A stretch of DNA of 64,000 nt from Planctomycetota bacterium (lineage in GTDB: Bacteria > Planctomycetota > UBA1135). This document shows positions 706 through 28,266 of the stretch, piece by piece. The notes beneath the pieces were generated by a model that saw only the letters and a list, made by a program, of their open reading frames with translations, did not search any database and was not told the DNA's origin. The translations under genes were made by a program, and so were the position numbers. Each line of letters starts with the position of its first letter. The stretch's first letter is position 1. The DNA lies in contig JAPKBM010000001.1 in assembly GCA_026421205.1 (NCBI GenBank), positions 65,893-129,892 on the forward strand, written 5' to 3'.

Positions 706-2877
706 TTACCTCCCCCTCCGCAACTCCACTGCATCGGGATACCAATCTAAGCCTTCCTGAAGAAAGTCTTTGGCCGTGGCTGACCAGCCCTTTTGCTCCG
801 CAAATAAAACCGCTTGCGCGTACAACTCCGGAGCACACCGCGTCATCGACCATGACCGAAGAAGGCCTTGAAATTCTGTTTCCCCTGAGGCCCCTTCGGC
901 TAATTTCATCGCCGACGCCAATTCATAGCGGCGCATTAATTCTTCTTTGGGCCAGACCCAACCTCGAGCAGATGCCTTGCGGAGACCATATCCCAAGCCG
1001 GAGAGATTCTGATTCAACTCCTCCTCCGATAAATCGGCCAGGGACAGTAGGTATCCCGCTGCGGACTCCGCGTCCCCTTGGGCCATAAACAGCCGGGCGG
1101 ACATCGCTCTCAACTGGACGCGAGAAGAAAGCAAAACGGGTGTCATGGAAGCATGGAGATTTCCCAATACCGCCAAGGCGGCAATCGGCGAATCTTCCTC
1201 AAAAGCATGGGCCAGAGTAAGGACACGGCATGCATGCGGGCTTCGAAACGTCTCTGCTATGGCCGGATCTCCCACCTTGATCCACGCTTGCGCCGACGCA
1301 AAAAGATTCGCATGCTCCATGACGAGGTGAGATGGGTCCGGCAAGGATCCCGGATGACAGGCCTCAGGTGAACTTAAATAGTCCTGAACCGTACTGAATA
1401 AATTGTCTACCTCCGACATCCTTGGGTTTGCCCTCTGTGCGCCCCAAGCAGCATGAAGCAAACCTCTCTGTTCTTCCGAATCTCTTTCGTGCTGTTTTTC
1501 TTGCACGCAAGAAAGTCCTATTTCTCGAAGGCCGACATCACCATGTCGGATACATGCCCACACGAGTGCCTCTTGTACCTCATAGGGAAACGAAAAGTCT
1601 GTCGCCAAAGAAAGTAAAAAAGCAGTCCCCTTTGGGTTTTTCTCTAAAGCATAAACCGCCCCCGCCCGGGAAGAACTCGCGACAGTTTTGTTTTGAATGA
1701 CTTCGAAAAAGAAGGGGGCGTCTCGAGGATCTTTTACCTTAGCCAACTGGGAAAAAGCCAAATCCAAGCCCATGGCATTCATTTCTGGCCACTCTGATCG
1801 CAAAAAATCTTGTGCCGCCAAAGAAGTTGCCGACCAAGCAAGCGCCAAGTGCGTCTTTATGGAAACCTCCGTGGGAGATTCTAAAAAGTTTCTGACTTCT
1901 ACCTCCTCAAAAGAGATTTTTTCAAGGGCCACCATCACCTGTCCCAATGCACGAGATCGCCGACCTTCTTGCTCCTCAAGCCAGGCCAGGGCACGACGCT
2001 CCCCCTCAAGGCCTCCCCCACGGACCAAAGCGGGAATCCAGTGCTCTTCCGCCAACAAGAAAAAGTTGTGTGCTTTGCGCTCCTGATAAGCCATCCACAA
2101 ATCTTTTGATTCCCCAAAAGCAGGAATCAGCTCCAAAGCAAGCCTATGGTTCTCTCTCCGGCCTGTATCAAGCAGTGCCAATACTTGTTTTGCCAAACCG
2201 GGGTCTTTCCCTTGAAGAGCAAGGGTTCGCAATGCCATGGTTTGAAAACTATATTCTGAAAGCATGGCTTGCTGAAAAATTATGGCGCGTTGAGAGGTGC
2301 GCGTCTCTACTTTTGCCCAAGTCTGGAGAGAAAATTCGCGCACAAACCCTTTTTCCACCTCAACAAGTTCTTGCAGAAGTGGAAGGTCTTCCGGAGTAAC
2401 CCATCGCCCCCAATGCTGGAAGAGCCAACGCAGCAAAGCATCCTCTCCACTCTTCCGCAAGAATGGGCGGAAATATAAAAAAGCAGAACGGCCCTCCACC
2501 GCAAGAACACGATCCAATATTTTCACCCGCATCGTAGGCCGCAAGGAACCCTCCAGAACCATCTCTTTAAGCGTCGATAGGCTCTGAGAAATTCTCATGT
2601 CCAAAAGCAAGTCCAAAGCCCATTTCTCATTCACAACCTGAGAAGAAACAAGTGCACTGTGAATCACCTTGGCATGCTTCGTCGTCAAATGAGGTAAGAG
2701 CTGTTCTCGCAACTGAACCCCCATGCGCTCCTCGACCTCCTTTTTTGTCCCCAGGTCTTCAAGAATCCACTGCAAAGAATCTCGAACCATCTCAGGAGAG
2801 AGTTGTCCCTCCTGTTGCGCAAGCCCAGGCGTCGGCATCACGAGCGTCCAGCTAAAAAGGAACCAAACGAATTTCAT
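706..2877 (-). CDS. Secreted alpha-helical repeat (HEAT-like) protein, function unknown
   Basis: A 723-residue protein with an N-terminal signal peptide (MKFVWFLFSWTLVMPTPGLA, likely cut before QQEG). The rest is a long run of Leu/Ala-rich amphipathic helices without transmembrane segments. Short helix-pair units such as 'MRVKILDRVLAVEGR' and 'LGNLHASMTPVLLSSRVQL' resemble HEAT or TPR-type solenoids, which usually act as scaffolds. No catalytic motif is visible. The start overlaps the stop of nnrD by 4 bases (ATGA) and the next gene begins 1 base after its stop, so nnrD, this gene and the YdjY gene look like one transcript. Specific function cannot be assigned. Confidence 0.72.
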   Translation of the reverse strand: MKFVWFLFSWTLVMPTPGLAQQEGQLSPEMVRDSLQWILEDLGTKKEVEERMGVQLREQLLPHLTTKHAKVIHSALVSSQVVNEKWALDLLLDMRISQSLSTLKEMVLEGSLRPTMRVKILDRVLAVEGRSAFLYFRPFLRKSGEDALLRWLFQHWGRWVTPEDLPLLQELVEVEKGFVREFSLQTWAKVETRTSQRAIIFQQAMLSEYSFQTMALRTLALQGKDPGLAKQVLALLDTGRRENHRLALELIPAFGESKDLWMAYQERKAHNFFLLAEEHWIPALVRGGGLEGERRALAWLEEQEGRRSRALGQVMVALEKISFEEVEVRNFLESPTEVSIKTHLALAWSATSLAAQDFLRSEWPEMNAMGLDLAFSQLAKVKDPRDAPFFFEVIQNKTVASSSRAGAVYALEKNPKGTAFLLSLATDFSFPYEVQEALVWACIRHGDVGLREIGLSCVQEKQHERDSEEQRGLLHAAWGAQRANPRMSEVDNLFSTVQDYLSSPEACHPGSLPDPSHLVMEHANLFASAQAWIKVGDPAIAETFRSPHACRVLTLAHAFEEDSPIAALAVLGNLHASMTPVLLSSRVQLRAMSARLFMAQGDAESAAGYLLSLADLSEEELNQNLSGLGYGLRKASARGWVWPKEELMRRYELASAMKLAEGASGETEFQGLLRSWSMTRCAPELYAQAVLFAEQKGWSATAKDFLQEGLDWYPDAVELRRGR

Positions 2878-3749
2878 CGGCCGACGACCTCCTGTATGGC
2901 ATGGGGTAAAAACTGGATAAGGTCCGTGGCATTCAAAGATTCTTCACCGACTTTTTCCGCCGCGAAATCCCCCGCCCGCCCGTGTAAATGCGCCCCCAAG
3001 CGTGCCGCCTGCACCGGCGACATCCCGCGGGCACAAAATGCGCCGATTAACCCTGCCAGGACATCGCCGCTTCCTGCCGTTGCCATGCCGGGATTCCCAG
3101 ATTCATTGACCCAGGGTTCTTCGGTGAGATCCCGACCCACCAAAGTTCCCGAACCCTTGAGTACGAGCGTCGCGCCGGTCTTCTCCACCAAAGCTCGCCA
3201 AGCCTCCACTCGGTTGGCCTGAACCTTGGCCGCTGACGACCACCCTAAGAGGCGAGCGGCTTCCCCGGAGTGAGGCGTCAAAATGGTTTGAGGGGTCATG
3301 ACCTTATGAAAGGAAACGCTGTGAGAGGCTAAATGGTTCAAGGCATCGGCGTCCAAAATCCTGGGTATTTCAGGCGGCAGAATCTCAAGCAACTGCAAAA
3401 TAGCCTTCCCAGTCTCCGGTTCGCCCCCTAGGCCTGGCCCGACCACAATGGCTTGAGCTTGTAATGATGCCTTGGCCACTGTCGAGACGTCGGCGAGGCT
3501 AAAACTTTCTTGCCCTTCTTGCGAAAAACTCAAAAGCATGGCCTCAGGGACCGATGCGATGAAATCCGGAGAAAGACAGGCTGGTGCGGCCAACACAACT
3601 GAGCCTGCCCCTCCTCGAAGCGCTGCTCGTGCACTTAATACCGCCGCCCCGGGCATGGCTCGGCTTCCGGCCACCAAAAGCACCCGACCCATTTCGCCTT
3701 TATGAGCATCGGTAGGGCGTGGCGGACAAGAAGGGTGAGAAGGAGTCAC
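2874..3749 (-). CDS. nnrD: ADP-dependent (S)-NAD(P)H-hydrate dehydratase
   Basis: A 291-residue ribokinase-fold protein of the YjeF C-terminal/CARKD family. It repairs hydrated NADH and NADPH using ADP in the cytoplasm. Visible motifs are the N-terminal 'HKGEMGRVLLVAGS', 'VVGPGLGG', 'ILTPHSGEAARLLG' and the catalytic/phosphate loop 'GSGDVLAGLIGAF' near residue 230. The length suits a stand-alone NnrD without the epimerase (NnrE) domain, and no nnrE is in this window. The listed start is GTG at 3749. No better start lies before the conserved HKG motif. It is divergent from ygfZ with almost no spacer, so the two promoters must overlap the opposite 5' ends. Confidence 0.9.
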   Translation of the reverse strand: MTPSHPSCPPRPTDAHKGEMGRVLLVAGSRAMPGAAVLSARAALRGGAGSVVLAAPACLSPDFIASVPEAMLLSFSQEGQESFSLADVSTVAKASLQAQAIVVGPGLGGEPETGKAILQLLEILPPEIPRILDADALNHLASHSVSFHKVMTPQTILTPHSGEAARLLGWSSAAKVQANRVEAWRALVEKTGATLVLKGSGTLVGRDLTEEPWVNESGNPGMATAGSGDVLAGLIGAFCARGMSPVQAARLGAHLHGRAGDFAAEKVGEESLNATDLIQFLPHAIQEVVGR

Positions 3750-18184: not shown

Positions 18185-19438
18185 CTAATATAAGTTCAAG
18201 TGCCCGGGACTATAGTTGGGAAAGAAACCCTTTGGAGGCTCAAACCCAAGACTGCCGTGGAGAACTTCGGCCAATACATCTCGGAAATCTGTGGTGACGG
18301 CCAAATCCCGGCCTTGATACAGCCCATCAGAAGTCAGACTCCTCCACTTTCCGTGAATTCGGCCGCCGCGGACACCACCACCCAACACAAACATGCCCCC
18401 ACCATGGCCATGGTCCGTGCCACTGTTTCCATTTTCCCGGAACGTGCGGCCAAATTCCGTCATCACAAGAATTGTCGTCGTATCGAGAATGGAACCGAGG
18501 TCGTCACAAAATGATTTTAGAGAATTTCCAAGATCCGCCAGGCGTGTATGGTGATTTCCCTCCACACCGCCTTGGCCTGCATGATCGTCCCAACCGCCAT
18601 AATCTAAGCCAACAATTTCCAATCCTGAGCCGGATTTCAAAACCTTTGCGATGGACTGCAGCTTCTTTCCAAAATTTCCGCTTGGGTACTTCACACTAGA
18701 CGTCCCTTTTTCCAGCAGATCCTGATACCGCCGAAGGGTTTCAATGGTCACTTTTCCAGACTTCACAACAACGTCTCCGTCTCTATCCATCATGGAATCG
18801 TCACCCTCCATCACGCCTCCGCCGACCCCATAGAATTCTTCAAATCGACTCAGCGTTTTTGCCCCCCTCTTTTTCTCCATGGAACGGGGTACAGCGAGAA
18901 CCGGGTAATTCCCTCTCAAGGAACGAGGGAGAAGTTTCTCCAAAGCCATCGCCCTAAACTCCGATGCGCCCTTCTTCTGCGTTGCCGCCAAGTATCGGTT
19001 TAGCCAGCCTGTGCGCACCGACCGATCTCCTGGCGCGGCAAATTCCATGAAGTCCTGCGCATCGAAGTGAGAACGTGTGGTGTGGGGAGATCCCACCATG
19101 ACCACCGGAGCAAGTTTTTTTGACTTCCAAAGGCTTTCCCAAGCAGAGAGCCCAGGGTGCAGTCCAAATTTTGAATCCAACTCCACCACACCATCTTCTT
19201 TGCGCAATCCAATGGTTGGCCGCGCCGAATGATAAGCATCATCTCGATAAGGAACGATCATGTTGAGAAAATCAGCACCACCACGAAGATAAATGCACAC
19301 CAGAGATCCCGGCTTTTTCTTTGTCCAAGAAAAAGACGAGCGAGAAAGAGCAAGGCTGGACGGACAAAGTGTAAATCCAGCCGTCAAACCTGCAGTTCGC
19401 AAAAAATCTCGGCGAGAGGGAGAATGATTACTTTTCAT
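18185..19438 (-). CDS. DUF1501 Tat-exported protein
   Basis: A 417-residue protein starting MKSNHSPSRRDFLRTAGLTAG, a textbook twin-arginine leader (SRRDFL). The domain follows with 'LVCIYLRGGADFLNMIVPY', 'HFDAQDFMEFAAPG', 'LDYGGWDDHAGQGGVEG' and 'FGRTFRENGNSGTDHGHGG'. It belongs to the alkaline-phosphatase/sulfatase-like superfamily, is abundant in Planctomycetota, and its activity is not established. The ORF track extends it 100 codons upstream, but ATG 19438 overlaps the DUF1800 stop as ATGA and starts the Tat signal. DUF1800-DUF1501 pairs are a conserved unit, so the two products probably act together outside the cytoplasm. Confidence 0.92.
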   Translation of the reverse strand: MKSNHSPSRRDFLRTAGLTAGFTLCPSSLALSRSSFSWTKKKPGSLVCIYLRGGADFLNMIVPYRDDAYHSARPTIGLRKEDGVVELDSKFGLHPGLSAWESLWKSKKLAPVVMVGSPHTTRSHFDAQDFMEFAAPGDRSVRTGWLNRYLAATQKKGASEFRAMALEKLLPRSLRGNYPVLAVPRSMEKKRGAKTLSRFEEFYGVGGGVMEGDDSMMDRDGDVVVKSGKVTIETLRRYQDLLEKGTSSVKYPSGNFGKKLQSIAKVLKSGSGLEIVGLDYGGWDDHAGQGGVEGNHHTRLADLGNSLKSFCDDLGSILDTTTILVMTEFGRTFRENGNSGTDHGHGGGMFVLGGGVRGGRIHGKWRSLTSDGLYQGRDLAVTTDFRDVLAEVLHGSLGFEPPKGFFPNYSPGHLNLY

Positions 19439-20991
19439 TGCTGCTGAAACTCCGGAGAACCCAAAAGAAGGCCGACAAGCTCGGGACCCAGAACCCTGGA
19501 ATCTGGAACCCGCGCCTTCGCCAAGTATTGGTTGGTGATCGTGGAGAGCGCATTGCGCGTGCGCTTTCCAGCGCCGGAAGGCACAAGATACTCCGTCAAA
19601 TAGTGTTGCCAAAGCCGGGGGACCTCTTGGGGGAGGCTGTCGTAATAGTTTGGAGGAATTTCTATCCCCTTTACTTTTCCGCCAGCAAGGCCTAGCGCAA
19701 ATTCCCAGCGAAGAGCCATCACCCCTGGATCCAGCCACGACTCGGCCGTGTCGTAGTAGCCTGTAGGATCATCGCAGTGATAGATCGGTTGCCCCATATC
19801 CATCAAGGCGCGATGCACCTTAGAGAAATCTGAGATCTCAACGTTTAAAGCACGAAAGGCACTCATAACGAACTCATAAGGCGTTTTAAATTTCGCCCGA
19901 TAATGCTCACGGCTCCAAAATTCTTCCGAAGCAACCAAAGATTGAATCATGGAAGGGACATTACCCTTAGTCTTCTTGTAAGCCTTGGTGAGGCGTTTCA
20001 CCAGAGAAGGAGGTGGGACGTCGGCGACAAAAAACCGAGCCAACTTCATGGATACAAACGCTGCAGTTCCTTTATGCCTAGCTAGCATCTGAACCATGGC
20101 CAAACCCTGCGCTTGAGGGTTCTCCTTGTCCTCCTTAAAGATTTTTCCCAATAACCTTTTGTCACCAAAAGCATGCATATCCTTCCGAAACTCAAAGGTA
20201 TGCGTACCTCGAGATCCCCCGCTAAACGTCCAACCGGTCAGGGCCCCGGCTAATGCGATGACATCTTTTTGTTTGTAATAATTGTCAACCCCTAAAGTGT
20301 GGAGTTCCATGATCTCTCTCGCATAATTTTCATTCAGGCCTTTCTGACCTGCAATCGTGGCCGCCTCTTCTCCCTGCGAACGAGAACCTGTCCGCCGGCG
20401 AACACGACGCTCCACGTCTCTCAGCTCTTGTTCCGTTGGCGGCTTACGAGAAAGATGATTGTCCAAATAATGAAGCATGGCGGGATGCTCCGCCGAAGCC
20501 ATCAACATGTCCTCAAAATTTCCAAGCGTGTGCCGACGCACCACCGTGCGCTCATAGTCGCTGATTAAAATTCTCGCTTGATTTCCTTTTGTAAAGCTTA
20601 CGTTCAAATGGTTCCGCCAAAAGTCACAAAGCACCTCCTCCAACTGCCGCTCTTTCTCTACGGCACGTCGAACCAAGGCCTGACTCAATTGCTTCCGAGG
20701 AATATTCTGGCGCTCCCTTGCCTTGCGGCGCGCCTCTTCTGATCCATCGTTTTCCTGATCCACTTCTGTGTACTCAAAACATTCATGAGGCGTTAGGTCC
20801 AGCGTTTCCAATTCTTTCAACTGAGCGGTCAATGCGCGGTTGGGCTCAGGCGCTGACGACAACTGCTCTTCCAACCAGGCTTTTTCCCCCTGCTCAAGAA
20901 GCATGTCCAAGTCCTCAGGACGAGGCCCGTAAGCAAACCGATTCAATAAATGAATTGCTCGCTCTTTTCGGCTGAGTGGCTCCATGGACAT
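19435..20991 (-). CDS. DUF1800 family protein
   Basis: The product is about 518 residues. It carries the DUF1800 hallmarks: 'RKERAIHLLNRFAYGPRPED' at the N-terminus, 'DFWRNHLNVSFTKGN', 'HYLDNHLSRKPPTEQELRDV', 'NENYAREIMELHTLGVDNYY' and a C-terminal 'ESWLDPGVMALRWEFALG'. The function of the family is not known; it is almost always paired with DUF1501, as here (4-base ATGA overlap). The ORF track begins at 21030; ATG 20991 (MSMEPLSRKER) is preferred because the family motif starts there and a G-rich Shine-Dalgarno precedes it. Unlike its partner it has no clear signal peptide. Confidence 0.88.
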   Translation of the reverse strand: MSMEPLSRKERAIHLLNRFAYGPRPEDLDMLLEQGEKAWLEEQLSSAPEPNRALTAQLKELETLDLTPHECFEYTEVDQENDGSEEARRKARERQNIPRKQLSQALVRRAVEKERQLEEVLCDFWRNHLNVSFTKGNQARILISDYERTVVRRHTLGNFEDMLMASAEHPAMLHYLDNHLSRKPPTEQELRDVERRVRRRTGSRSQGEEAATIAGQKGLNENYAREIMELHTLGVDNYYKQKDVIALAGALTGWTFSGGSRGTHTFEFRKDMHAFGDKRLLGKIFKEDKENPQAQGLAMVQMLARHKGTAAFVSMKLARFFVADVPPPSLVKRLTKAYKKTKGNVPSMIQSLVASEEFWSREHYRAKFKTPYEFVMSAFRALNVEISDFSKVHRALMDMGQPIYHCDDPTGYYDTAESWLDPGVMALRWEFALGLAGGKVKGIEIPPNYYDSLPQEVPRLWQHYLTEYLVPSGAGKRTRNALSTITNQYLAKARVPDSRVLGPELVGLLLGSPEFQQQ

Positions 20992-21069
20992 TATTCCCAT
21001 CCTAAGACAAAACCCCAAGAGCAGGCACAAGTTTCGTGGAAAGATTACCGCTTGAGGCGGAAAGCGATT

Positions 21070-23103
21070 TTATAGAAAACGAAGATCAAGGGCAAACCGT
21101 GGGTCCATGGGGAGGAGGATTTCCGCACCCCCGAGGTCACCCACTACGGTGCTTCCCTTCCACGTCCAGGCGTAATCAACGCCATTCGAACTTTTGAGCT
21201 CCAGGTCCATTTCCACGTGCACCCTCTCCCCAGGATTCCCAGAAAAATGGTGGGGAAATCCGCCCGTGTATTCCCATATCAAACAGTACGGAATTGGAGA
21301 CGGCAGCCTCTCATCTTCATCCAGCCAAGGGGATACATACCGAAGTTGAAAAATAGCGGGCGCCGTTTCCGGGTGCGCGAGACGCTCTAAAAGTGTCCGA
21401 TCCATGCTGCCCCATGGCGCCCCACCATTCGCCTTTGCTAAATCTTTCGCCAACAAAGGGAGTCGGCTTTCGCGAAAGATAAACCGAACCTTGCGCTCTT
21501 TCAGTATTTTTTCCGCCTGAGCCACTTCGGTCGCCAAATAAAATCTCGCCGCATCCCGATAACTATCTTCGCCAACGTAACTCCCAAAATTTGTTCCGAC
21601 GCTACCAACCTCGGCAACCCACTCTAAAGCATGTCCAATATCCCAAGGGCCTAGCCCGGAATGCGCCGACGTGCCCAAGGCTAAGGAAGCTGTCCCCTCC
21701 TGCCCTACCCACTCCAGCGCATCTCGTGTGGCCGCCGACCTCATGGATTGCGTCCACGGTCCTTGCCAATCCACGGAGATAAATGCTGTAAGGCCGACTA
21801 AACCCGCGAATCCCACCAAAGAGCGCCTCTTTAAAACCTGCGTCAGCCACAAAGTAACGACCACGGCAATAGGCCCCACGGCAAGATCACTAAAGCGGCG
21901 CTGAAGAAGAGCCTGCAAGATAACAACAGGAAGGATCACCAACCAAATCCGTAGCGCGGGACGATGCACTCGAAGAAACGCCGTCCAGGCAAGAGGCGTC
22001 AACAAAACGGCAAGGCCCAGCCAACGCAAAACACCACCGGTCCCCGTCTGATCCGCGCGATAGAGCGGTTCCGATTCTGCAATGCCCGCCATAAATTCAT
22101 TCCCCCGCGAAATCCATTGAAGCGCCTCTTGCATGCCCTCTCCTGGCCCCCAACGAAAGAGCCAAAGTAGAACGGCAATACTGAACGCAATCAAAGCAGA
22201 CTGACGCGGTTTTTTGCTCCAAAAAATAAACGCGCCACCAAGGAGATAGAGCAAATGAAACCACGAAAGGTTCACAAACATCCATGGAGAATCTATCTTC
22301 CAGGGACTGGCAATAACTGCGGGAAGAACAGTCAACGCGGCGACCCCATGAAACCAAAGAGCAAAAGTGCGCGATTCAGTTTTCCTCTCTGCAAACAAGG
22401 ACCAAAGAAGTGTCGCTTGCAACAAACCAATCGATAGCAAGGAAGGCACCCATGACCCCAGAAGAATTCCGGCAATGACACCGGAGAAAATCCCTGTTAA
22501 ACGCATGCGTTTCTGGCTACTCGAGTCAAGCCATGCCCAAGAAGCAATGCCCCAAAGAAGTGTTGTGAAAAATGCCACAAACGCATGATGGTCGGCAACA
22601 CCCCAGGCCGAAGTGTGCACCGATCCATAAGTCAATGCATGGAGAAGCCCAGCCGCAAGTGACGCGTCGGGTCGACGGGAAAGAAGAAAGACAATGCCTG
22701 CAATCAAACACGAAGTTAGAATTCCAAAAAGAAGGGGGATCGTTGCAACCCAATGCTCCACGTCGGCCTTTTTAGGCGAGTTGGGAAGAAAAACGCGTGC
22801 GGTTTGTAAAAGAAAAAAGTCGTAATAACTCGGCCATGGAATTTTTGCGCCGTACGGGTAATTCATCTGAGGGTCCTCCGAAGCAACCCCTCCTTCCCCT
22901 AAGCCTCGTGCAACTCGCCGCGCATGATAAAGGCCATCGGCATCTACACTGAACCAGCCGGTTTGCACTATTTGGCCGGGAAGTCGCTCCATACGCTGAT
23001 CCTGCTTGACGCGCACCCAAAGACTTGCGCACAAGACCAGCCCAATCACCCCCACGAGAGACCACGGAAATCCACACCTCGCCGGAAGAGAAATGAGTTT
23101 CAA
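21070..23103 (-). CDS. STT3-like oligosaccharyltransferase/GT-C membrane protein
   Basis: A 677-residue protein with about 11-13 predicted transmembrane helices and a C-terminal periplasmic domain. The first external loop carries an acidic motif 'VDADGLYHARRVARG', as in the DxD-type loop of STT3/PglB/AglB. Further on come 'GVADHHAFVAFFTTLLWG' and, in the soluble part, 'SGLGPWDIGHALEWVAE', a variant of the WWDYG catalytic-domain signature in which W-D-x-G is kept. Such enzymes move a lipid-linked glycan to Asn of exported proteins. The acceptor specificity and glycan are unknown. The TTG start overlaps the previous stop (TTGA). Confidence 0.75.
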   Translation of the reverse strand: MKLISLPARCGFPWSLVGVIGLVLCASLWVRVKQDQRMERLPGQIVQTGWFSVDADGLYHARRVARGLGEGGVASEDPQMNYPYGAKIPWPSYYDFFLLQTARVFLPNSPKKADVEHWVATIPLLFGILTSCLIAGIVFLLSRRPDASLAAGLLHALTYGSVHTSAWGVADHHAFVAFFTTLLWGIASWAWLDSSSQKRMRLTGIFSGVIAGILLGSWVPSLLSIGLLQATLLWSLFAERKTESRTFALWFHGVAALTVLPAVIASPWKIDSPWMFVNLSWFHLLYLLGGAFIFWSKKPRQSALIAFSIAVLLWLFRWGPGEGMQEALQWISRGNEFMAGIAESEPLYRADQTGTGGVLRWLGLAVLLTPLAWTAFLRVHRPALRIWLVILPVVILQALLQRRFSDLAVGPIAVVVTLWLTQVLKRRSLVGFAGLVGLTAFISVDWQGPWTQSMRSAATRDALEWVGQEGTASLALGTSAHSGLGPWDIGHALEWVAEVGSVGTNFGSYVGEDSYRDAARFYLATEVAQAEKILKERKVRFIFRESRLPLLAKDLAKANGGAPWGSMDRTLLERLAHPETAPAIFQLRYVSPWLDEDERLPSPIPYCLIWEYTGGFPHHFSGNPGERVHVEMDLELKSSNGVDYAWTWKGSTVVGDLGGAEILLPMDPRFALDLRFL

Positions 23104-25298
23104 AATCTTAATGAGTAAACGACTTTCAAGGCCAAATCACTAGAAGTTGGAATCCAAACACTTCCGATCTCCTCCCGCCATCCTGTATTCAGTACAAAAA
23201 ATAATTCTTGCCCATCTTGCTGCATCCAACGCATTCGACTTTGCGCACCGAGCTCGTCTGATTGATTGTCGTATTGGATAATATTTTTCCAACTCCAATC
23301 TGGAGAAAAAAACCAATCCACATCTGCGGAAACGACGCGGCTGGAAAAATCCCCTGCGGCGAGAAAGGCTTGGCTTTCTGAATAATCCAAGGCCATTCTG
23401 GAATGGGCGCTTGGTCGCCAAGAAAGTTCGAGGCCAGCCTTGGCCAACGTACCGTCATACCAAGTGCCAAATCCCCCACCAACTTCCCATGCGAAATCTT
23501 CATTCATAGGAGACTCCCATGCAACTTCGGTATTCCACCAATCATGCCAACCAAGAGAAACCGGAATGTTGCCTGGGGCAAAGGAATCTGAGGTAACCCG
23601 GTCGCCTGCAATTTTCATGTCCCAACCAAATCGTGAACCATCATGCCATTCCATTCCGAGCAAATCCAACTTCACCTGATGAGACATCACTCTTTTGTCT
23701 CCGTCCACCCAAACCGAGGGCCTGACTGAAAACGTATATCTCCGGACATCCCCCGAGCTAGGCCGGGGCTCCCAAAAGAAGCGTCCCTTCACAAGCGCTT
23801 GGCCAGGCCGACGGACATAACCCATGCCAGGATGAAATCGGCCCATAGCCGCAACCGTTTCCACGCTCATGTGTAAATCTTTCAGCCGAAGAGCTGCCTT
23901 CACCCCTGCGGCACCACCAATCTCTCCCGCCTCCTCATCATTACTTCGCACGAGCCAGGTGTTCCATGAAAAAAGGCCCGGAAACCATTCGGTATTAGAG
24001 TGCCGCCAGTCAAAGCCGGTCACCACATTCGAAGAAATGGAACCGGGATTCCCTGACGTCAACAGAGCTCCCACGGATGTTGTGGAATTCACATTCCAAT
24101 TGGGTCGAAAGACCAAGAGATCTCCATCGGTTTGCGGAGAATCGTCCGTCGGCCCCGTATGAACCGCAAGCACCCCAAGGTCAAATTCCCCCATACGCCC
24201 GGTTAAACGAGCACCAGATTCCAAGGGAACTTCATTGCCACCGGAAAGCCCAATCGCCCGACTGTAAAAAGGAATGACTGTGTCGCTACCGCGCCAACCA
24301 CCACTCGCACCAAAAGAAAAAAGTGTCGAATCCTCCAGGAAGAAATCTCTCTTCTCTGGAAAAAATAGCGAGTATTGCGTGAGGTTCACCCTTCGGTCAT
24401 CAATTTCCGTCTCTGCAAAATCCGTATTTCGAGTAAAGCTTGCCTTCAACTGCGGCGTAATCCACCAATCAAATTCACCGCCCATTCCGGAAAGCCAGTC
24501 ACTTTCTCCTCCATGCACATCGGTGCGTTTCGCCTTAATGTACGGCCGAAACTCAAGACCTAAACCTTGGTCGATTTCGGCGAAGCCTGTCATCTGGCCT
24601 GCTTGACTCACATTCATCACCCAATACTGACGCAATGGATTTGCCCAACGCCATTTTGTCCGAGAAGACCCACGGTACCTTTCAAAATTTATTCCCCACC
24701 GACCGGTTTCCCCTGCAGCAATCGTCTGGAAAGGGATTTCAATTTCTGCCGTCCAACGGTCTTCCCCCACCAGCGTCCGCCCTTGCCAAACGCCGTCCCA
24801 TTGTTTATTAAAACTTTTGCCGTTCGCGCCAATCAAGCCGTCCCCTCTAGACCCTGCTGCGGACACCTGAAAAAAGTATGCGTTTTTCCCATCTAAAAAC
24901 GTGTCCAAAACAAACTCCACACGATCGTCCTCCCTCAAAAAGGCGTCTCGTTGCATTTGCTGAATGACCATGGAATCTGGATCTGGCTCCATGCAAACAA
25001 AGCCGACGTAAAGGGCTTTTTCCGTCCGCATCAACCAAACTTCCGTTTCTGGGTCTGGGTCGGCCCCCTCCACAGGAGTGACCTCTTTAAAGCCACGCAA
25101 CTTTGTCGCCGACGCCCAAGAATCCTCGTCAAGCACTCCGTCCACCTGAGGGGGAACGTCAACATGAGGAACGTGAAATTCTTGCGCAGTGACCAAACGG
25201 GCATCGGCGAAGAAAGCTGTGACGATGAGTACGAAAGGGGTTAACAGGCGGAATATTTTCCGTGTGAGACCCGTCAAGGGAACAGATTGGGGGTTCAC
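23100..25298 (-). CDS. Secreted CBM9-like/DUF5916 outer-membrane beta-barrel protein (internal start within mutY frame)
   Basis: A GTG at 25298, preceded by AAAGGAG at ideal spacing (6 bases from GGAG), would begin a 732-residue protein. Its first 38 residues form a signal peptide: basic N-region with RK, hydrophobic LLTPFVLIVTAFF, end near TAQEF. Then comes a CBM9-like domain ('PPQVDGVLDEDSWASATKLR', 'LREDDRVEFVLDTFLDGKN') and a long aromatic, alternating beta-strand region typical of the DUF5916 barrel, ending with Phe (VVYSLRF), as outer-membrane proteins often do. The family may bind glycans or act in surface uptake; no ligand is known. It shares frame and bases with the end of mutY. Confidence 0.78.
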   Translation of the reverse strand: MNPQSVPLTGLTRKIFRLLTPFVLIVTAFFADARLVTAQEFHVPHVDVPPQVDGVLDEDSWASATKLRGFKEVTPVEGADPDPETEVWLMRTEKALYVGFVCMEPDPDSMVIQQMQRDAFLREDDRVEFVLDTFLDGKNAYFFQVSAAGSRGDGLIGANGKSFNKQWDGVWQGRTLVGEDRWTAEIEIPFQTIAAGETGRWGINFERYRGSSRTKWRWANPLRQYWVMNVSQAGQMTGFAEIDQGLGLEFRPYIKAKRTDVHGGESDWLSGMGGEFDWWITPQLKASFTRNTDFAETEIDDRRVNLTQYSLFFPEKRDFFLEDSTLFSFGASGGWRGSDTVIPFYSRAIGLSGGNEVPLESGARLTGRMGEFDLGVLAVHTGPTDDSPQTDGDLLVFRPNWNVNSTTSVGALLTSGNPGSISSNVVTGFDWRHSNTEWFPGLFSWNTWLVRSNDEEAGEIGGAAGVKAALRLKDLHMSVETVAAMGRFHPGMGYVRRPGQALVKGRFFWEPRPSSGDVRRYTFSVRPSVWVDGDKRVMSHQVKLDLLGMEWHDGSRFGWDMKIAGDRVTSDSFAPGNIPVSLGWHDWWNTEVAWESPMNEDFAWEVGGGFGTWYDGTLAKAGLELSWRPSAHSRMALDYSESQAFLAAGDFSSRVVSADVDWFFSPDWSWKNIIQYDNQSDELGAQSRMRWMQQDGQELFFVLNTGWREEIGSVWIPTSSDLALKVVYSLRF

Positions 25299-26240
25299 AA
25301 GGGTCTCCTTTGAATCAGGTGGCAAGCGATACACATCGGCGGTGATTTTATGGTGCGTAATGGTATGGCGCACCGTGCCGAGGTGTTCCTGAAGGGTGCC
25401 TAGTTTAGAATGTTGTTTCAGCCAAGAGTCCGCGGCATTCGCTGCATTCACGGCCCCTGAAGAAAGCGTGACCATGGGAGGTTCCCAGAACCCCGTATTC
25501 CAGCCCTCGGATCGCTGATAAAGAAGACACTCATTTTCATCCCCCTTCAATCCAACTGCAAAATGAAGACGTGTCCAAGATTTCTTTTTTGCAGCTACCG
25601 GATAATCTTGTGGTGATTCCGCGGTGCAGAAATCAGAAACCGGACAATTTTCACACTGCGGGGCTCGCGGTGTGCACACGGTGGCACCTAATTCCATGAT
25701 GGCTTCATTCAATTTCCCCGGTGCAGCAGGTCCGCGCGCATCCATCCAGGCCTGCGCCCAAATCTCTGACGCTTTATGCAGAGCCGTTGAGCCCGCAGGA
25801 TGCAATAAAGACTGTTGACGCGCCGCAACCCTCTTGACATTTCCGTCCACCACAGCAATCGCTTCTCCGTTCACAATGGAAGCGATGGCCGCCGACGCAT
25901 ACCCACCCACCCCAGGAAGACGCTTCCACTCCTCCGCGGTGACGGGGTATCCATCTCCCCCTTCCACCACCATTTTTGCCGCCTGATGTAGCATTCGTAC
26001 CCGTCGGTAGTAACCAAGGCCCGCCCAAATTTTTAAAATCTCTTCCTCTGAAGCCGCGGCAAAAGACTCTGGGGAAGGATACAAATCCATAAAACGGAGC
26101 CAATAAGGGATCACCGCCTCCACACGCGTTTGCTGCAGCATGATTTCAGAAACCCAAACCCCCCATGAATCTTGCGACTTCCGCCAAGGCAGGTCCCTTT
26201 TCTTTTGTGAAAACCAATGAAGAAGCTGGCTTACCGGCAT
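23100..26240 (-). CDS. mutY: mutY open frame continuing in frame into a CBM9/DUF5916 outer-membrane protein
   Basis: One uninterrupted 1046-residue frame. Residues 1 to about 335 are a complete adenine DNA glycosylase that removes A opposite 8-oxoguanine. It has 'SEIMLQQTRVEAVIPYW' with the catalytic Glu, helix-hairpin-helix 'LPGVGGYASAAIASIVNG' with 'AVVDGNVKRV', the [4Fe-4S] ligands in 'CTPRAPQCENCPVSDFC', and a NUDIX-like C-domain ending near 'SVPLTGLTRKIFRLL'. No stop follows. The frame runs through a signal-peptide core (TPFVLIVTAFF) into a secreted protein. MutY alone is normally about 350 residues. The start overlaps lipB by 10 bases. A true bifunctional protein is unlikely; see the internal start entry. 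Confidence 0.85.
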   Translation of the reverse strand: MPVSQLLHWFSQKKRDLPWRKSQDSWGVWVSEIMLQQTRVEAVIPYWLRFMDLYPSPESFAAASEEEILKIWAGLGYYRRVRMLHQAAKMVVEGGDGYPVTAEEWKRLPGVGGYASAAIASIVNGEAIAVVDGNVKRVAARQQSLLHPAGSTALHKASEIWAQAWMDARGPAAPGKLNEAIMELGATVCTPRAPQCENCPVSDFCTAESPQDYPVAAKKKSWTRLHFAVGLKGDENECLLYQRSEGWNTGFWEPPMVTLSSGAVNAANAADSWLKQHSKLGTLQEHLGTVRHTITHHKITADVYRLPPDSKETLVNPQSVPLTGLTRKIFRLLTPFVLIVTAFFADARLVTAQEFHVPHVDVPPQVDGVLDEDSWASATKLRGFKEVTPVEGADPDPETEVWLMRTEKALYVGFVCMEPDPDSMVIQQMQRDAFLREDDRVEFVLDTFLDGKNAYFFQVSAAGSRGDGLIGANGKSFNKQWDGVWQGRTLVGEDRWTAEIEIPFQTIAAGETGRWGINFERYRGSSRTKWRWANPLRQYWVMNVSQAGQMTGFAEIDQGLGLEFRPYIKAKRTDVHGGESDWLSGMGGEFDWWITPQLKASFTRNTDFAETEIDDRRVNLTQYSLFFPEKRDFFLEDSTLFSFGASGGWRGSDTVIPFYSRAIGLSGGNEVPLESGARLTGRMGEFDLGVLAVHTGPTDDSPQTDGDLLVFRPNWNVNSTTSVGALLTSGNPGSISSNVVTGFDWRHSNTEWFPGLFSWNTWLVRSNDEEAGEIGGAAGVKAALRLKDLHMSVETVAAMGRFHPGMGYVRRPGQALVKGRFFWEPRPSSGDVRRYTFSVRPSVWVDGDKRVMSHQVKLDLLGMEWHDGSRFGWDMKIAGDRVTSDSFAPGNIPVSLGWHDWWNTEVAWESPMNEDFAWEVGGGFGTWYDGTLAKAGLELSWRPSAHSRMALDYSESQAFLAAGDFSSRVVSADVDWFFSPDWSWKNIIQYDNQSDELGAQSRMRWMQQDGQELFFVLNTGWREEIGSVWIPTSSDLALKVVYSLRF
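25305..25311 (-). promoter_or_regulatory. Internal Shine-Dalgarno inside mutY that decides the DUF5916 start
   Basis: On the minus strand the sequence reads AAAGGAG-ACCCTT-GTG, a near-perfect ribosome binding site with 6 bases between GGAG and the GTG. It lies within the last ~25 codons of the MutY domain. Its presence supports independent initiation of the secreted protein downstream rather than a real MutY fusion. Confidence 0.75.
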
Positions 26241-26866
26241 GGCAAAAGAACCTCTTCAAGGTGGGCAAAAAAAACATCTTTCACTTCAGCAAGAGAGGGC
26301 GCCGACCCAAGCTGTTCCTCCAGTGATGTCATGACGTCAGGCTCAAGGCCACATGGATGAAACTGACGAAACCAAGATAGGTCAGTGGTGACGTTCAAAG
26401 AAACTCCGTGGTAAGTCACCCACTTGCGTACAGCAACACCGACGGCTCCAATCTTTTTTCCCCCCACCCAGCAACCGGTATTCCGTTCATCCCGGCCACC
26501 CTTTAAACCAAAGGTCTCCACCGTTTGAATCAGCGCAGTCTCTAAAGAATATAAATAAGCATGCAAATCTCTTGCATCGGGCGCTAAATGAATCAATGGA
26601 TAAGCGACCATTTGTCCTAAACCATGAAATGTTGCCTTTCCACCCCGAGAAACCTCTTGTACTGGAATCTTTAAATGCGCGAAATCCGCCGCCGCGCCGG
26701 CACGACCCACAGTAATGATGGGTTCCAACTCACAAAATAACACTTGATCCGTTGCCTCACCCCGAGCAATTTTCTCCACCCGGTCTATCATGATTTGTTC
26801 CGCCTCAGAGTGACTTAGCCGACCGAGGTCAACCGCATCCAAACGAGGCGACTCCCTCAAGCGCAT
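26231..26866 (-). CDS. lipB: Octanoyl-[acyl carrier protein]:protein N-octanoyltransferase
   Basis: The 211-residue LipB moves octanoate from ACP to the lipoyl domains of target proteins, here most directly the E2 encoded 3 kb upstream. Motifs are 'RGGKATFHGLGQMVAYPL' (substrate loop), 'GCWVGGKKIGAVGV' with the catalytic Lys, and 'QFHPCGLEPDVMTSL' with the catalytic Cys. ATG 26866 overlaps the lpdA stop as TAATG and is preferred over the track start at 26887. The 3' end overlaps mutY by 10 bases. Confidence 0.93.
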   Translation of the reverse strand: MRLRESPRLDAVDLGRLSHSEAEQIMIDRVEKIARGEATDQVLFCELEPIITVGRAGAAADFAHLKIPVQEVSRGGKATFHGLGQMVAYPLIHLAPDARDLHAYLYSLETALIQTVETFGLKGGRDERNTGCWVGGKKIGAVGVAVRKWVTYHGVSLNVTTDLSWFRQFHPCGLEPDVMTSLEEQLGSAPSLAEVKDVFFAHLEEVLLPCR

Positions 26867-28266
26867 TATTTCGCGGAGTGAATGCACAAGTTGTGCACAT
26901 CCTCACACGCTTCCATAAATACTTCGGACAACGTCGGGTGCGGATGAATCGTCAAGGTGATGTCTTCCGAGGTCAACCCCGCCTCAATGGCAATGGCTGC
27001 TTCAGAAATCATGTCCGTTACATTCGGGCCAACCATATGCACTCCCAACAAGGTGTCATCACTGGCGCGCGTCACCACTTTGACTAAACCATCACTGGCT
27101 TGTATGGACATCGCGCGGCCATTCGCCGCGAAGTTGAAACGGCCAATTTTGACATCAATGCCCTTCTCAATAGCCTCAGCTTCTGTCATGCCAACCATGG
27201 CCACTTCTGGGTCTGTGAAAATAACGGCTGGAACCACTTGCGCATCCCAAGCAGCGCCGCCCTGCCCCAAAATAGCGGAAGCTACAACCAAACCCTGCGC
27301 GGACCCTTTATGCGCCAACATTGGCCCCGTAGTGGCATCCCCAACGGCATAGATATGTGGAATACTCGTTTGGCATTGTGAGTCCACGCCAATAAACCCT
27401 CGGGAATCCACCTTCACGCCACAAATGTCCAAGTTCAAATGCTCCGTGCGTGGGCGCCGACCCGTAGCCAATAGAATCTTATCCGCAGAAAACTCTCGGG
27501 TTTTCCCAGAAATCTCTACCGCAACGCTCAAGCCATCACCCAAGGGCTTCCAGCTTTTTGCGGAAGCAGAAACATGAATCTTCACGCCAAGCTTCTTCGC
27601 TTTTCGCTGCACTACTTTGACCAATTCTGGGTCTACCCCAGGAAGGATTTGGTCCGCGTATTCAATGACGGTGACTTTAGTGCCAACTTGTGCATAAAAA
27701 GAGCCCATCTCCATGCCAATAACACCGCCCCCAATCACAATCATCTCTTTCGGCAAGGTCTCCGGCGAAAGAGCTTCTGCACTTGACCAAATGTGCTCGC
27801 CAAACTCAAAGCCAGGGATTCCTGCAGGGATCGAACCGCTTGCAATAACAATATCTCGGGCTTTGACCACAACAAGGCCGTCAGCAGTTTCCACCTCAAC
27901 CGTGTTTGCGTCTTTCACACGGGCTGACCCTTTGAGCCATTCGACTCCACGTTTTTCAAACAACATACCGATGCCACCCGTCAGTCGCGTGACAATGGAA
28001 TCTTTCCAAGCAATGAGCTTGCTCAGATCAAGGGTTGGTGTGTCCACGGTAAAGCCCATGGCCGAGGCGTGCTCCGCATGCTCCATGAAGTGCCCAGCGG
28101 AAATCAAAGCCTTCGAGGGAATGCAGCCAACATTTAAACAAGTTCCTCCCAAGTTCCCCTCTTCCACACAAATCACTTTCCGGCCGAGTTGCCCCAAACG
28201 AATAGCGCACACATAGCCCGCGGGGCCTGCCCCAATGACGACAACATCAGTGTTTTTCTCAGACAT
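26866..28266 (-). CDS. lpdA: Dihydrolipoyl dehydrogenase (E3)
   Basis: A 466-residue FAD flavoprotein that reoxidises dihydrolipoyl groups of E2 with NAD+. It contains the FAD fingerprint 'VVVIGAGPAGYVCAIRLG', the redox-active disulfide 'GGTCLNVGCIPSKAL', the NAD-binding 'MIVIGGGVIGMEMGSFYAQ', 'YAVGDATTGPMLAHKGSAQG' and the interface His-Glu pair in 'TIHPHPTLSEVF'. The track start at 28353 adds 29 unrelated residues; ATG 28266 (MSEKNTDVVVIG) is right. It is the last of the complex subunits and follows the second E1-alpha by 58 bases. Confidence 0.95.
   Translation of the reverse strand: MSEKNTDVVVIGAGPAGYVCAIRLGQLGRKVICVEEGNLGGTCLNVGCIPSKALISAGHFMEHAEHASAMGFTVDTPTLDLSKLIAWKDSIVTRLTGGIGMLFEKRGVEWLKGSARVKDANTVEVETADGLVVVKARDIVIASGSIPAGIPGFEFGEHIWSSAEALSPETLPKEMIVIGGGVIGMEMGSFYAQVGTKVTVIEYADQILPGVDPELVKVVQRKAKKLGVKIHVSASAKSWKPLGDGLSVAVEISGKTREFSADKILLATGRRPRTEHLNLDICGVKVDSRGFIGVDSQCQTSIPHIYAVGDATTGPMLAHKGSAQGLVVASAILGQGGAAWDAQVVPAVIFTDPEVAMVGMTEAEAIEKGIDVKIGRFNFAANGRAMSIQASDGLVKVVTRASDDTLLGVHMVGPNVTDMISEAAIAIEAGLTSEDITLTIHPHPTLSEVFMEACEDVHNLCIHSAK

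Follow-up and report, generated by a model that had tools for sequence, protein, structure and literature searches.

We begin by considering a single reading frame on the reverse strand of the window (the whole analysed stretch of 64,000 nucleotides), in which the DNA-repair enzyme MutY runs without a stop codon into an outer-membrane protein of the DUF5916 type. The frame is continuous, it recurs in a second genus of the same family, and both the MutY motifs and the signal-like segment between the two proteins are retained. The junction is a real and unusual gene arrangement, a variant of the polyproteins that signal peptidase separates or of in-phase overlapping genes. The reading that we favor, with a probability of about 0.5, is that one MutY-signal-barrel precursor would be made and cut by signal peptidase, with an internal GTG possibly adding barrel protein in the genome of the window (G000).

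The fused reading frame

The frame (23100-26240, reverse strand) has 1046 codons and no internal stop. It consists of MutY (residues 1-333), a hydrophobic signal-like segment (334-352) and the DUF5916 outer-membrane protein (from 353). The features of the region are the following.

26231..26887 (-), lipB, upstream in the same gene run and overlapping the mutY start by 10 nt (PF21948)
25242..26240 (-), MutY domain, residues 1-333 (glycosylase domain, 4Fe-4S motif, NUDIX-like C-terminal domain)
25305..25311 (-), Shine-Dalgarno-like AAAGGAG, 6 nt before the GTG (the 16S tail of the genome ends CACCTCCTTT)
25296..25298 (-), candidate internal GTG start of the barrel protein (motif and energy statistics; no equivalent start with a Shine-Dalgarno there in the fused relatives)
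25242..25283 (-), shared codons, VPLTGLTRKIFRLL, both the conserved last stretch of MutY and the basic n-region of the putative signal peptide (MutY ends aligned across relatives)
25185..25241 (-), hydrophobic and cleavage region of the putative signal peptide, TPFVLIVTAFFADARLVTA (hydropathy; predicted cleavage between VTA and Q)
23103..25184 (-), mature DUF5916 outer-membrane protein, ending in Phe (PF19313; Pfam stretch at 24309-24557)
23100..23102 (-), sole stop codon of the fused frame
21070..23103 (-), STT3-like membrane protein (TIGR04154, E 3e-26, below the cut-off; 4-nt overlap between its called start and the stop of the barrel)

Models from Pfam and NCBIfam (HhH-GPD, 4Fe-4S) place MutY at residues 1-307. 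The HhH-GPD fold is recognized by PF00730 at 74.7 bits with the catalytic Glu and Asp kept (SEIMLQQT and VDGNVKRV), and the 4Fe-4S motif Cx6Cx2Cx5C is present as CTPRAPQCENCPVSDFC, with PF10576 over its cut-off. The match to TIGR01084 (247.2 bits, E 2e-73) lies below the cut-off of 286.5 and is still the best of the NCBIfam models by far, and MutY chains in the PDB match this part at E 1e-57. The NUDIX-like C-terminal domain is matched weakly by PF14815 (NUDIX_4; 27.6 bits, cut-off 35), and the MutY proteins of relatives align over this region to its end. By its motifs and its best match, and not by the TIGR01084 cut-off, the stretch of residues 1-333 is assigned to MutY. It is the sole MutY in the genome; the other match, on contig C79, is weak and Nth-like. 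Among relatives the tail of MutY is conserved as VPL(T/S)xLx(R/K)K, or more narrowly VPL(T/S)(G/S)Lx(R/K)K. The unfused relatives have a stop within about 10 codons after this tail (the G014 end aligns poorly). In the window the tail PLTGLTRKIFRLL continues directly into TPFVLIVTAFFADARLVTAQ with no stop in between. The gene lipB was not found beside mutY in the tested stretches of relatives.

The signal peptide is assigned from hydropathy and residues: the 19-residue linker has a hydrophobicity like that of the signal peptides of separately encoded relatives. The DUF5916 protein is recognized by PF19313 at 25.4 bits (cut-off 22.6) over residues 562-644, a partial match to positions 5-86 of the 572 in the profile, and its terminal Phe would fit a beta-barrel. 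An AlphaFold prediction of the barrel from a two-row alignment has a pLDDT of 28 and is unusable.

The initial annotation had described mutY as running without a stop into an outer-membrane protein gene, with the end of MutY and the signal peptide sharing codons. The stop is truly absent from the open 1046-codon frame, and the junction is seen as described. Of the full MutY and CBM9/DUF5916 barrel that it had named, MutY and DUF5916 are recovered by Pfam and NCBIfam, and CBM9 has no Pfam match in the fused protein.

The junction across the family

The fused protein was searched against 26 genomes of the same family, and mutY and the barrel gene are adjacent in 14 of them. A spacer separates the two genes in G001, G002, G003, G007, G014, G016 and G023; they overlap by ATGA in G004, G006 and G015, and by ATGCTAA in G011. 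The two genes share one frame with a stop between them in G002, G014, G016 and G023, and both stop and spacer are gone in G000, G010 and G019. The family thus contains the intermediate steps (spacers, short overlaps, one frame with a stop, no stop), which speaks for the polyprotein. G010 and G019 are two species of the genus g11, in separate assemblies, and their junctions read VPLSSLGKKVLSLAGVLGCLILASPKATSQ and VPLSSLGRKVLSIAGVLGGLLLLSPDSFGQ respectively. They are strongly diverged: over the last 60 MutY codons the two have 63% nucleotide identity, the junction is gapless, and the differences (18, 8 and 40 at codon positions 1, 2 and 3) are concentrated at the third position. All three fused genomes keep a hydrophobic stretch as strong as that of the unfused relatives. 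The comparison with relatives that had been proposed at the outset therefore bears out the run-on: these two genomes carry the same stop-free frame and the other adjacent pairs keep the mutY stop. Relatives in which mutY ends before the GTG would have spoken against it, and the stops that we find come after the homologous position.

Long MutY frames also occur in other families of the order (G066, G069, G061, G091, G070 and G028). They are mostly open extensions upstream, where MutY has its own end and is not fused downstream, and were set aside.

On the barrel, four-protein and rpoB trees, G000 groups with G002, G008 and G011, and the genus g11 lies outside. The fused state then needs two changes on the trees, either two gains or one gain and one loss (a re-separation). 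Two independent origins are likely on these trees, yet not firm, because a barrel tree in which G000, G010 and G019 are forced into one group is rejected by only a narrow margin (p-AU 0.0499). At 1.8-2.15 Mb, the three fused genomes rank among the family's smallest, which fits gene compaction, but the small genomes of genus g10 are unfused.

The internal GTG

The AAAGGAG-N6-GTG that the initial annotation placed in frame inside the end of MutY is found in G000 at 25311-25296 (-), with a spacer of 6 nt. "How unusual is such a start?" Within the 64-kb window, which is the sole basis of these statistics, we require a Shine-Dalgarno match of at least 6 nt at 3-10 nt from the start. It is present at 8 of 1372 internal in-frame start codons (0.6%), the GTG at 25298 among them, and at the candidate starts of only 5 of the 46 genes. 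The anti-Shine-Dalgarno of the 16S rRNA (L083) is intact in the genome, despite this sparse use. Given about five in-frame starts that keep the signal, the chance of such a match here is about 3%. Judged by hybridisation energy, starts of at least this strength make up 3.2% of the internal ones, and 13% of genes reach it at their best candidate start. Before any priors are weighed, the evidence speaks for a real start by at most nineteen to one on the motif and by about four to one on the energy. The motif is suggestive and not decisive for use of the GTG. The sparse use of Shine-Dalgarno sequences in the window weakens it as proof of a start.

The fused relatives, both of genus g11, have no counterpart of this start at the same place; G000 is the only genome of genus g1 in the comparison. 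In G010 the stretch that begins 46 codons ahead of the MutY end and reaches past the hydrophobic core has no in-frame ATG, GTG or TTG, and in G019 there are only an in-frame GTG 27 codons before the MutY end, with no Shine-Dalgarno, and a TTG past the core. An ATG at -46 codons is common to both, with AGGAG 5 nt ahead of it in G019 only. The start with a Shine-Dalgarno is therefore not a general part of the arrangement, and the continuous frame does not depend on it, because G010 and G019 show the same run-on. The earlier claim that the barrel has its own start at the GTG is thus not established. A separate start there is one of two live possibilities, a less firm one that the fused relatives leave unsupported.

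A proposed cleaved precursor and its alternatives

We infer the expression, insertion, export, cleavage and GTG use of the following scheme from the sequence. The mutY gene and a downstream outer-membrane-protein gene would have merged into one frame, and ribosomes starting at the mutY ATG would make MutY, signal peptide and barrel in one chain. The internal signal would insert into the inner membrane, leaving MutY in the cytoplasm while the barrel part is exported through Sec. Signal peptidase I would cut after VTA, the mature barrel would begin QEFHVPHVDVPP (QEF), and the products would be a free outer-membrane barrel and a MutY that carries a short membrane tail at its C-terminus. In G000 the GTG at 25298, with its Shine-Dalgarno, may yield additional barrel that has no MutY attached, so that more barrel would be made than the small amount needed of a repair enzyme. 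With no nearby in-frame start in G010, the barrel seems to be made within the MutY polypeptide at least in that genome, and this pattern points to a cleavable polyprotein rather than to a hazard that something must stop. Against the precursor, a soluble domain of 333 residues ahead of the signal peptide is unusual for a putative substrate of Sec and signal peptidase; the start in G000 would suit separate initiation (such a match is present at 0.6% of internal starts and at candidate starts of 5 of 46 genes); and the barrel could start at the GTG at -27 in G019, or at the ATG at -46 in G010 and G019 with a very long n-region. A wider claim, that MutY is regularly synthesized in one polyprotein together with an outer-membrane protein, that signal peptidase frees a membrane-tethered base-excision-repair enzyme and that two small-genome lineages reached this independently, is in our judgment doubtful.

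Alternatively, the two genes may overlap in phase, with the barrel made essentially only from the GTG and ribosomes from the mutY start giving a fused by-product whose MutY part may work. We regard this as a plausible contender at less than even odds. The AAAGGAG can pair with the intact 16S tail, merely 8 of the 1372 internal starts are as good, and internal in-frame starts are known, e.g., that of Cas11b within cas8b (PMC11899642). The second product of Cas11b type likewise comes from an internal start, here a candidate one. There, however, it is the C-terminal part of the same protein, while in our frame it belongs to a different gene, and the signal peptide of that gene overlaps the end of MutY. 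What counts against the in-phase overlap is that G010 has no equivalent start and G019 only a GTG with no Shine-Dalgarno, that Shine-Dalgarno use at gene starts of the window is sparse, and that the GTG is paired in the predicted local fold (a single prediction with no shuffled comparison). Moreover, mutY has no stop at all, and free MutY could therefore arise only by cleavage. The continuous frame would equally suit a multidomain protein that is never cut, with MutY anchored via the signal segment of the barrel, which we find very improbable: the signal-like segments still end in small residues followed by a polar start, like those of separately encoded relatives, and a linker of about 20 residues cannot hold an outer-membrane barrel to a protein in the cytoplasm.

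An assembly or sequencing error that removed the mutY stop is the least credible account, even in a fragmented genome (96 contigs, 88% completeness), and we reject it. Two relatives, G010 and G019, are fused in the same way. In G000 neither of the two shifted frames has a start codon ahead of the hydrophobic segment, and an in-frame stop after MutY would leave all in-frame starts of the barrel upstream of that stop; therefore no single error restores two normal genes. The frameshift or missing base that had been named as a possible refutation would thus leave the barrel with no start codon.

Relation to known systems

The FbcH precursor of Bradyrhizobium, a cytochrome b/c1 fusion, reportedly has an internal signal peptide after its first protein, and signal peptidase is said to separate the two proteins. 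Our frame follows the same plan: it is unbroken, and a signal-like segment inside it lies between two complete proteins of different fates, with the cleavage here predicted. In FbcH, however, both proteins are parts of a single complex and the first is a membrane protein too, while MutY is a soluble DNA glycosylase that is not known to be connected with the barrel, and our frame also has an internal GTG with a Shine-Dalgarno. The FbcH gene is named in the literature as a b/c1 subunit (PMC12456017). Overlapping gene pairs can also be coupled by termination and reinitiation (PMC10666635), and a short overlap of the sort used in this coupling is present in G004, G006, G015 and G011. With no stop codon at the junction of G000, G010 and G019, this mechanism is impossible there. 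Our literature search found no paper on a fusion of MutY with an outer-membrane protein and none mentioning DUF5916.

If the cleaved precursor is true, this is a natural example, of a rare kind, of a soluble enzyme of the cytoplasm that has its frame and even some codons in common with an exported protein and is parted from it by signal peptidase. All stages are present in the family, from genes with a spacer through short overlaps to complete fusion, and they offer a testable series for compaction that ends in protein fusion. The arrangement is also a warning for gene calling: under a single call the outer-membrane protein goes unseen behind the name of a DNA-repair enzyme, or the enzyme behind that of the barrel.

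Neighboring genes and further copies

DUF5916 barrel relatives are present in all 26 family genomes searched. In at least 20 of the 26, including genomes that have mutY at another place, an STT3-like gene adjoins the barrel, and the two proteins are possibly a functional pair. A second and more distant copy of the DUF5916 barrel is present in G007, G012 and G020 (L073, L074 and L075). The barrel of G011 (L036) has an in-frame TAA in the middle of the gene, at about residue 371 of the matched stretch 1501-3567, from either a decayed gene or an assembly error. Elsewhere in the window, the DUF1501 and DUF1800 genes at 18185-21030 overlap by about 300 nt when called by the first start, and the true start of the downstream gene is probably further in.
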